From positions 1 through 54,494 of the forward strand of contig JANXSQ010000011.1 of assembly GCA_025356595.1 (NCBI GenBank): a stretch of 54,494 nucleotides of DNA, given 5' to 3'. Positions 26,664-48,165 of this stretch are shown piece by piece. The notes beneath the pieces were generated by a model. That model was not told the origin of the DNA. It made no database searches and saw only the letters and a program-made list of their open reading frames with translations. Every line of letters starts with the position of its first letter. The first letter of the stretch is position 1. Made by a program: the position numbers and the translations under genes. The DNA is from Janthinobacterium sp. Its GTDB lineage: Bacteria > Pseudomonadota > Gammaproteobacteria > Burkholderiales > Burkholderiaceae_D.

Positions 26664-27725
26664 CTAGTTGTCCTCGCGCAGGCGGCGCTGGCGCACGGCG
26701 GCGGCCAGGCCTTCGAGCACGGCCAGGCTTTGCGGCCAGTCGATGCAGCCGTCGGTGACGGACTGGCCGTACACCAGCTCCTTGCCGGCCACCAGATCCT
26801 GGCGTCCCGCCACCAGATTCGATTCCACCATCACGCCGACGATGCGGCCGTCGCCGCCGGCCACCTGGGCGGCGATGTCGGCGCAGACGGGAATCTGGTT
26901 TTCCGGTTTCTTCGAGCTGTTGGCGTGCGAAGCGTCGATCATCAGGCGCGCCGCCAGGCCTTGCGCGCCGATCGCCTTGCAGGCCTCGTCGACGCTGGCC
27001 GCGTCATAGTTCGGCGTCTTGCCGCCGCGCAGGATGATGTGGCAATCCTCGTTGCCGTTGGTGGAGACGATGGCCGAGTGGCCGCCCTTGGTGACGGAGA
27101 GGAAATGGTGCGGCTGCGACGCCGCCTTGATCGCCTCGACGGCGATCTTGACGTTGCCGTCGGTGCCGTTCTTGAAACCGACCGGGCAGGACAGGCCGGA
27201 GGCCAGTTCGCGGTGCACCTGGGATTCGGTGGTGCGCGCGCCGATCGCGCCCCAGCTGATCAGGTCGGCGATGTATTGCGGGCTGATGACGTCGAGGAAC
27301 TCGGTGCCGGCGGGCAGGCCCATCTCGTTGATGTCGCGCAGCAGCTCGCGCGCCATGCGCAGGCCGTCGTTGATGCGGAAACTGTTGTCCATGTACGGGT
27401 CGTTGATCAAGCCCTTCCAGCCGACCGTGGTGCGCGGCTTTTCGAAGTACACGCGCATGACGATCTCCAGCTCGCCGGCGAAGCGGGCGCGCTCCTTGAC
27501 CAGCAGGCGCGCGTACTCCAGCGCCGCCTTGGTGTCGTGGATCGAGCAGGGGCCGATGACCACCATCAGGCGGTCGTCCTGGCCGTGCAGGATGCGGTGC
27601 AGGGCGATGCGCGAATCGGCCGCCGTCTGGCCGGCCGCCTCGGAGCAGGAAAACTCGCGGATCAGGTGCGACGGTGGGGTTAATTCCTTCATTTCGCGGA
27701 TGCGCAGATCGTCGGTGCGTGGCAT
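26664..27725 (-). CDS. aroG: 3-deoxy-7-phosphoheptulonate synthase (AroG-type DAHP synthase)
   Basis: First enzyme of the shikimate pathway; condenses phosphoenolpyruvate and erythrose 4-phosphate. It is 353 residues and closely follows the E. coli AroG/AroF/AroH class I family. Motifs include DDLRIREMKEL at the N-terminus, VVIGPCSIHD, MRVYFEKPRTTVGWKGL, SWGAIGARTTESQVHRE, SCPVGFKNGTDG, and the metal-site segment DASHANSSK. The ATG at 27725 is chosen for the GGAGAG 5 nt upstream; the longer reading would run back through the leader terminator. Resemblance is strongest to the phenylalanine-sensitive AroG, which fits the phenylalanine-rich leader peptide upstream. The isozyme assignment is inference. 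Confidence 0.95.
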   Translation of the reverse strand: MPRTDDLRIREMKELTPPSHLIREFSCSEAAGQTAADSRIALHRILHGQDDRLMVVIGPCSIHDTKAALEYARLLVKERARFAGELEIVMRVYFEKPRTTVGWKGLINDPYMDNSFRINDGLRMARELLRDINEMGLPAGTEFLDVISPQYIADLISWGAIGARTTESQVHRELASGLSCPVGFKNGTDGNVKIAVEAIKAASQPHHFLSVTKGGHSAIVSTNGNEDCHIILRGGKTPNYDAASVDEACKAIGAQGLAARLMIDASHANSSKKPENQIPVCADIAAQVAGGDGRIVGVMVESNLVAGRQDLVAGKELVYGQSVTDGCIDWPQSLAVLEGLAAAVRQRRLREDN

Positions 27726-27766: not shown

Positions 27767-27796
27767 AAAAAAAAACCGCCATCGTTGGCGGTTTTT
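27767..27796 (-). terminator. Attenuator terminator in the aroG leader
   Basis: In minus sense AAAAACCGCC, loop AACGAT, GGCGGTTTTT with a run of nine T residues. It stands 41 nt before the aroG ATG and 45 nt after the leader-peptide stop codon. The 5' arm ACCGCC (27787-27792) can instead pair with GGCGGT (27849-27854) inside the last codons of the leader peptide, giving a mutually exclusive antiterminator. Confidence 0.9.
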
Positions 27797-27841
27797 AAGG
27801 ATTTGCTGGGATCTCGTCGTGCTTGCTACGTGAACCGGCCG

Positions 27842-27910
27842 CTACTCCACCGCCTTTGGGTTGGAATTGCTAAAATAAAAATGACCGGTAAAAAACGGGA
27901 AGCTGCGCAT
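27842..27910 (-). CDS. Phenylalanine-rich leader peptide of aroG
   Basis: A 22-codon ORF beginning MRSFPFFTGHFYFSNS and ending TAG at 27842. It has five Phe codons (one TTC, four TTT) and one Tyr within codons 4-13 and no Trp. An AGGA ribosome-binding site lies 9 nt upstream, and the transcription start predicted from the promoter is about 18 nt upstream. Codons 19-21 contain GGCGGT, complementary to the terminator's 5' arm. A ribosome stalled at Phe codons 11-13 would leave this segment free and favour antitermination. A ribosome reaching the stop codon would mask it and let the terminator form. This is the classical leader-peptide attenuation design, as in pheA of E. coli. Function is inferred, not shown. 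Confidence 0.88.
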   Translation of the reverse strand: MRSFPFFTGHFYFSNSNPKAVE

Positions 27911-27934
27911 GGACTTGATCCTATCTGTTGAACG

Positions 27935-27964
27935 ACTATAGCGCCAAATGAGGCCTGTTGGCAA
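27935..27964 (-). promoter_or_regulatory. Promoter of the aroG leader transcript
   Basis: In minus sense: -35 TTGCCA (27959-27964), an 18-nt spacer, -10 TATAGT (27935-27940). Predicted start near 27928, about 200 nt before the aroG ATG. It precedes the leader peptide at exactly the distance expected. Confidence 0.8.
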
Positions 27965-48059: not shown

Positions 48060-48080
48060 CGCTGGCGCGTCGCCCATGAA

Positions 48081-48114
48081 AAAAACCCGCCGGCTCGCGC
48101 CGGCGGGTTTTTTT
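48081..48114 (+). terminator. Bidirectional intrinsic terminator between rsmE and the Oar-like receptor
   Basis: Perfect stem ACCCGCCGGC / GCCGGCGGGT with a TCGC loop, an A-run before and a run of six or more T residues after, so it works for the convergent genes on both strands. Confidence 0.94.
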
Positions 48115-48165
48115 GTCGCTTGGCGCGGGCGGCATCGCTGCCGTCCGCGCCGTGGCGCAAGTCGC

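Follow-up and report, generated by a model that had tools for sequence, protein, structure and literature searches.

The window analysed here, i.e. the whole stretch of 54,494 nucleotides, carries on its minus strand a gene for a DAHP synthase (aroG), preceded by a promoter-like site, a short open reading frame and an intrinsic terminator (Table 1). In a sequence-only reading of this DNA the region had been described as a promoter, a ribosome-binding site and a 22-codon ORF with five Phe codons and one Tyr codon, followed by a stop and a nine-T terminator 41 nt before aroG, with GGCGGT of the leader complementary to ACCGCC of the terminator; on re-reading the sequence all these elements proved to be exact. 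The sigma-70-type site, TTGCCA-18-TATAGT (27964-27935), was the sole promoter-like match in the scanned stretch, the expectation from shuffled sequences being 0.2. Phenylalanine is encoded by codons 4, 6, 7, 11 and 13 of the leader, and tyrosine by codon 12. The 41 nt are counted between the last T of the terminator (27767) and the ATG of aroG (27725). Between GGCGGT of codons 19-21 (27854-27849) and ACCGCC (27792-27787) the complementarity is exact, and in the computed fold of the window the pairing reached further, joining GGCGGUGGA with UCC...ACCGCC. The ORF located 5' of the leader region (29527-28067) is presumably a tldD-like gene.

Table 1. Features of the aroG upstream region, with positions in the window and the basis of each assignment.
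Feature	Position	Strand	Basis and remarks
-35 hexamer TTGCCA	27959..27964	(-)	Promoter scan; also in most relatives among the alignment rows listed
-10 hexamer TATAGT	27935..27940	(-)	Promoter scan; also in most relatives among the alignment rows listed
AGGA, likely leader ribosome-binding site	27919..27922	(-)	Read from the sequence; 8 nt 5' of ATG
Leader ORF MRSFPFFTGHFYFSNSNPKAVE and stop TAG, 22 codons	27842..27910	(-)	Kept in relatives
Control codons 4-13	27872..27901	(-)	Five Phe, one Tyr; aromatic runs in relatives
Region 1, UUCCAACC, one strand of the 1:2 hairpin	27858..27866	(-)	RNAalifold consensus (37 sequences) and single-sequence fold
Region 2, GGCGGUGGA, antiterminator 5' strand within the ORF end	27846..27854	(-)	Stalled-state fold, base-paired with region 3
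UCC extending the antiterminator helix	27799..27801	(-)	Stalled-state fold, base-paired with the GGA of region 2
Region 3, terminator 5' arm AAAAACCGCCA, common to antiterminator and terminator	27786..27796	(-)	Terminator scan, covariation tests
Region 4, terminator 3' arm TGGCGG and nine-T tract	27767..27781	(-)	Terminator scan, covariation test
Intrinsic terminator, 11 pairs	27796-27771	(-)	Nine T, the last at 27767
aroG, DAHP synthase, AroG/AroFGH type	26664..27725	(-)	NF006723, 575.3 bits (cut-off 568); TIGR00034
ORF 5' of the leader region	29527-28067	(-)	Upstream neighbour of the promoter-leader-terminator stretch

Among the 357 ATG-initiated ORFs of 12-40 amino acids in the window, only one contained at least five Phe within ten residues, and this one was the leader itself. 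The leader RNA folded 4.6 standard deviations below its shuffles (z -4.6), none of 200 shuffled sequences being as low. The terminator alone was not rarer than chance (one found by a simple scan, 1.3 expected), and the main evidence for the putative element is its conservation. Codon usage in the leader (27842-27910) favours TTT, the locally rare Phe codon: the TTT:TTC ratio was 4:1 here versus 5:102 in five long genes of the window, and 314:117 across 90 leaders of the window's own family. Passages of PMC1183508 on codon choice in attenuators call rarity alone an oversimplification.

The alignment of upstream regions proposed in the sequence-only reading was run with 110 regions preceding aroG, 30 from whole genomes (the window's own included) and 80 from named contigs (e.g., Janthinobacterium, Massilia, Duganella, Rugamonas, Collimonas and Herminiimonas), the two sets overlapping in species. 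The ATG, the GGCGG motif and the terminator occurred together in 109 of the 110 regions including the window's copy, that is in 108 of 109 relatives; aromatic codons, GGCGG strand and terminator are all kept. L115, a near relative, has neither leader nor terminator, and its aroG follows the tldD-like gene after a short gap. The aromatic run was plain in the printed sequences, being weakest in L030 and L060, where only FYF is left. Within the same printed set, changes of leader length 5' of FYFS comprised whole codons (multiples of three). Some leaders of Duganella and Massilia change frame after FYFS, yet retain GGCGGTG; natural frame variants of the leader end (L038, L066, L068, L069, L072, L073, L076, L077, L080, L083), with the stop further downstream, all keep GGCGGTG. 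Since the changes before FYFS come in whole codons and GGCGGTG is retained despite the later change of frame, the codons and the RNA strand look separately constrained. In the alignment A1 (37 sequences), GGCGGTG was invariant, and RNAalifold proposed the 1:2 hairpin and the terminator. The strands being invariant, no covariation was detected among the nearest relatives (1570 of 5000 permutations were as low; RNAalifold covariation term -0.09).

For the tests described below, 241 upstream regions were collected, of which 191 passed a filter for a leader plus a terminator; removal of duplicates left 153. Omitted from the fold and pairing tests were L182, L229, L242 and L030 (of which L060 is a duplicate), in which the ORF was picked wrongly or was unconvincing; the tests thus comprise 59 leaders of other families and 90 unique leaders of the window's own family, the latter drawn from the nearest-relative regions together with 12 own-family matches to the model R1 (see below). 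A later set comprised 36 loci, one of which (L304) yielded no leader; L310, which lacks aroG, had been kept out of this set.

The earlier claim that stalled and completed translation would give opposite structures was supported by the fold probabilities calculated for each ribosome position. The transcript was folded as it would be before the terminator 3' arm exists, the edge of the ribosome being placed 12 nt beyond the start of the A-site codon. In four groups of leaders the antiterminator probability was 0.83-0.97 for a ribosome standing on aromatic codons versus 0.11-0.23 for one at the stop: 0.875 versus 0.198 (59 leaders of other families), 0.847 versus 0.220 (90 of the own family), 0.833 versus 0.228 (25 of the families f63 and f68) and 0.968 versus 0.108 (10 from outside the class). 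The stalled value exceeded the stop value in 182 of 184 leaders. In the window, the antiterminator probability was 0.81-0.83 at codons 6-15 and 0.10-0.18 from codon 21 to the stop; a stall at the Phe codon 4 gave only 0.31, and the value dipped to 0.15 at codon 17, recovering at codons 18-20. Shuffled spacers yielded 0.55 in the stalled state and 0.40-0.46 at the stop, hence the contrast between stall and stop is in part, though not in its size, accounted for by base composition. With no ribosome on the transcript, a hairpin within the leader end (UUCCA.CC/GG.GGUGGA, found with RNAalifold and in the single-sequence fold) occupies the antiterminator strand, and the antiterminator probability was 0.03 in the window, 0.23 on average in its own family and 0.62-0.86 in the other groups. 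Judging by these values, termination would be the default in the window and its family, and untranslated leaders of the other groups would tend to read through.

Several features of the locus are those of an attenuator: the leader ORF has a cluster of codons for an amino acid that the pathway makes, an intrinsic terminator stands between the leader and the structural gene, and aroG belongs to the pathway of the amino acid presumably sensed. An antiterminator that excludes the terminator depending on the position of the ribosome is predicted by computation only, two of five covariation measures not exceeding the controls. We consider it very probable, judging by sequence and modelled folds, that the region is a classic ribosome-mediated transcription attenuator, which would couple aroG to the charging of tRNA-Phe, with tRNA-Tyr playing a lesser part. 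According to this model, the ribosome would trail the RNA polymerase along the 22-codon leader. When charged tRNA-Phe is scarce, the ribosome would stall at codons 6-13 and cover region 1; region 2 (GGCGGUGGA) could then pair with UCC...ACCGCC while the terminator 3' arm is still to be synthesized, and transcription would continue into aroG. When charged tRNA-Phe is ample, the ribosome reaching the stop codon would cover region 2, the terminator would form, and the transcript would end at about 160 nt. If the leader is left untranslated, the 1:2 hairpin would hold region 2, resulting in termination as the default state in the window.

The pairing of the leader end with the terminator arm was then considered outside the nearest relatives. 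Across the 59 members of other families the native pairing energy was -13.12 kcal/mol versus -12.45 kcal/mol for permuted partners, with none of 5000 permutations as low. A separate alignment, A2, also comprised 59 sequences, 46 from other families and 13 from the window's own one. Its columns 83 (leader), 181 (5' arm) and 195 (3' arm) showed the triple U-A-U in 18 and C-G-C in 13 of the 59 sequences; A-A-U, in which the leader pair is missing, was found in 12, and other combinations in 16. Such triples are expected when two competing helices share one strand. For the antiterminator helix, doubly changed cells numbered 22 against 12.5 in shuffled alignments (0 of 500 as high), 15 of the 22 coming from a single column pair. 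Pairs changed on both sides (3 versus 2.9 in shuffles; 360 of 500) and pair types (11 versus 10.6; 255 of 500) of this helix were not above the shuffled control, and the helix slid by +3 scored higher on both (5 and 16, respectively). These two measures are rated the least open to relatedness of the sequences, which the shuffle and slide controls both leave in. The terminator helix was above the controls on all five measures, including doubly changed cells (29 versus 8.9, 0 of 500). A coupled change of the three strands is partly shown by the alignments. As for the compensatory changes proposed as a check in the sequence-only reading, the strands seem to change partly in step outside the family; among the invariant nearest relatives no such changes were found, and two antiterminator measures stayed at the level of the shuffles.

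Within the order the element is widespread, though not universal. Thirteen families of the order have members in which it was seen directly 5' of aroG, as have two more families of the class and three outside the class. The model R1 matched 96 of 399 genomes of the order (E 0.01). Matches from other families preceded an aroG homologue at 17 of 18 loci, and then at 33 of the next 40 fetched; the eight of these 58 without aroG in the stretch examined scored 27-32 bits, except for L145 (37.6 bits), which scores as high as true R1 loci. A broader model, R2, matched 148 of 399 genomes at 1e-3, with full-length matches at 1.4e-7 or better in 105 genomes of 15 families (counted by hand); 13 of these 15 families (all but f11 and f21), and part of their genomes, were checked for an adjacent aroG. 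Many weak matches to R1 and R2 are confined to the model's terminator end. One weak partial match to R2 (E 5.8e-4, model positions 57-136) lies elsewhere in the window, at 48080-48148 on the minus strand, and is probably an ordinary terminator.

Of 78 genomes sampled evenly from the other families of the order, 56 had an AroG homologue, and 19 of the 56 showed a leader with a terminator. Altogether 75 AroG places were found, six of which, at 36-39% identity, were left out, leaving 69; the 19 comprise 15 of these 69 places recognized with the strict terminator and four or more aromatics per ten residues, plus four from a looser scan. By the strict scan, 21 of 69 places had a terminator preceded by a short ORF of any kind, versus none of 690 shuffled regions. 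A search of the class (369 genomes) gave four strong R2 matches outside the order (three in f63, one in f68), all four before aroG; six weaker outside-order matches inspected in the same search were not before aroG. In the family f63, 26 of 99 genomes matched R2, with the locus in front of aroG in 25 of these 26. A search of the phylum (299 genomes) revealed 33 matching genomes at 1e-6. The families f253, f256 and f260, which lie outside the class, account for 15 of these; all ten outside-class loci fetched precede aroG (seven as judged by alignment, three by reading the translation).

The composition of the aromatic run differs between lineages, and this change of codons leaves the most room for surprise. 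Tryptophan was encoded in 22 of 90 own-family leaders, 29 of 59 leaders of other families, 24 of 25 leaders of f63 and f68 and all ten from outside the class; the window leader has none. The outside-class loci L311-L320 are aroG leaders that combine Phe, Trp and Tyr (YFWYF, FWYF, YWYF); a type II DAHP synthase is also present in all seven searched genomes of this set. The supposition that Trp-containing leaders go with a single DAHP synthase was not supported (13 of 34 one-enzyme versus 16 of 31 multi-enzyme genomes, Fisher p 0.32); the comparison covered 65 of 79 genomes, two of f43 and 12 from outside the order being left out, and type I-beta enzymes were not counted. We regard it as an even chance that one ancient aroG attenuator with a GGCGG/CCGCC core extends across Proteobacteria beyond one class, its specificity being retuned through the codons of the leader: dominated by Phe in the family of the window and, with runs such as FYFWYYF or YWYF, a multivalent Phe/Tyr/Trp sensor elsewhere. 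If so, all three aromatic end products would be sensed at the common first step of the shikimate pathway.

These codons also bear on what the window's element itself would sense. The Tyr codon 12 and the Trp residues of so many other leaders would fit a sensor of all aromatic amino acids, Tyr and Trp included, in which the dominance of Phe is incidental here; we hold this to be rather unlikely, as the window leader has no Trp and a Phe to Tyr ratio of five to one, and as, according to passages of PMC11802643, Tyr supply is without effect on the Phe-Tyr-Phe leader of Corynebacterium glutamicum. It is highly improbable that the peptide acts by nascent-chain stalling, sensing free Phe in the exit tunnel in the manner of TnaC instead of uncharged tRNA. 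The FYF run is indeed highly conserved among the nearest relatives, third codon positions too, which could suit such a peptide; between families the peptide drifts while its aromatic richness stays (FYFYFF, FFFSRFY, YWYF), and a stall caused by excess Phe would presumably turn a biosynthetic gene on, i.e. with the wrong sign. An ordinary terminator stopping upstream transcription, with an incidental ORF in a T-rich stretch, is just as improbable: one terminator-like match is expected by chance and leader genes were proposed, in the part of PMC4833913 concerned, to raise translation generally, but both parts are kept in nearly all nearest relatives, leader length changes by whole codons, the leader cross-pairs with the terminator, and the promoter-like site sits between the upstream gene and the hairpin.

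Taken together, the anatomy of the locus and its conservation in relatives, as observed here, and the computed folding by ribosome position support the Phe attenuator that had been proposed in front of aroG; the transcription start, the actual termination and the response to amino acids we infer. DAHP synthase opens the route to all aromatic amino acids, and a conserved RNA switch would explain the end-product control of aroG in many Proteobacteria. The leaders with differing aromatic codons offer a natural series for testing how the specificity of an attenuator changes.

The attenuator logic proposed for the window, with 1:2, 2:3 and 3:4 pairings, is shared with the trpL attenuator, Phe codons standing in place of Trp codons. 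With pheL (before pheA) and pheM (before pheST) of E. coli the element shares the Phe-rich leader, the antiterminator competing with a terminator and the U-tract; it differs in its target, aroG, and in the location of the antiterminator strand inside the ORF end, an arrangement from which the layout of pheL and pheM differs. The Rfam models scored in the window below their gathering scores (RF01859 Phe_leader, 21.5 bits versus 55; Trp_leader, 13.9 bits versus 41), as did all 16 window matches obtained at a permissive threshold, and no Rfam family reached its gathering score in 11 related loci; NCBIfam offered no model for the leader peptide. The transcription of DAHP synthase genes in E. coli is controlled by TyrR and TrpR, hence enterobacteria share with the present element the end-product control of the same step, exerted there by protein repressors. 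TrpR (TIGR01321) was found in the E. coli control and not in the window's genome.

A second aroG-type gene of the same genome, on contig 79, encodes a protein 52% identical to AroG and has no Phe leader in the ~180 nt upstream on the contig. Likewise, no Phe leader was seen in the stretch read upstream of the paralogue on a plasmid of Cupriavidus sp. EM10, the sole plasmid record inspected, and a second plasmid search gave no close orthologue among the 40 matches listed.

In Vibrio, the DAHP synthase gene of the operon aroA I-alpha-Y > tyrA is, judging by its name, presumably of the Tyr type. Among other attenuators linked to tyrA, one is predicted for this operon in Table 7 of PMC1173090, likewise before a proteobacterial DAHP synthase gene; it differs in being a database prediction tied to tyrA, and the passages of that paper concerned give no leader peptide or amino acid. 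In Ralstonia solanacearum, a member of the same order, deletion of the sister DAHP synthase gene raised the expression of aroG1-lacZ and aroG2-lacZ ~10-20 fold; 1 mM Phe lowered aroG-lacZ 2-3 fold in the deletion strains, the mechanism being unnamed, and had a small effect in the wild type (47 to 40 Miller units), as stated in portions of PMC6379268, in the main text of which the words "attenuat-" and "leader" are absent. Perhaps the effects of the sister gene and of Phe are what such a switch would predict. The main text of a 2010 survey of premature terminators (PMC2965389) contained none of the terms aroG, DAHP and phenylalanine. Our literature search revealed no report of an aroG leader peptide for Proteobacteria in the portions of the sources covered; the survey of proteobacterial attenuators by Vitreschak (2004), cited in PMC1262725, may mention one.

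The closest published counterpart is the aroF leader of C. glutamicum, aroR, which contains Phe-Tyr-Phe and responds to Phe, according to passages of PMC4046766 and PMC11802643. The sequence-only reading had supposed that control of the first shikimate step by tRNA-Phe charging would be a distinct design; aroR is a precedent for that design. Both elements place a Phe/Tyr leader, with Phe-Tyr-Phe, before a DAHP synthase gene, transcription of which rises when Phe is limiting, as published for aroR (Neshat 2014, in the passages concerned) and as predicted here. The likeness was drawn from published descriptions, and C. glutamicum is an Actinobacterium; the two elements presumably arose independently. 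Attenuation of a DAHP synthase gene by a Phe leader is thus a known kind of control, and the proteobacterial aroG leader is a new member of it.
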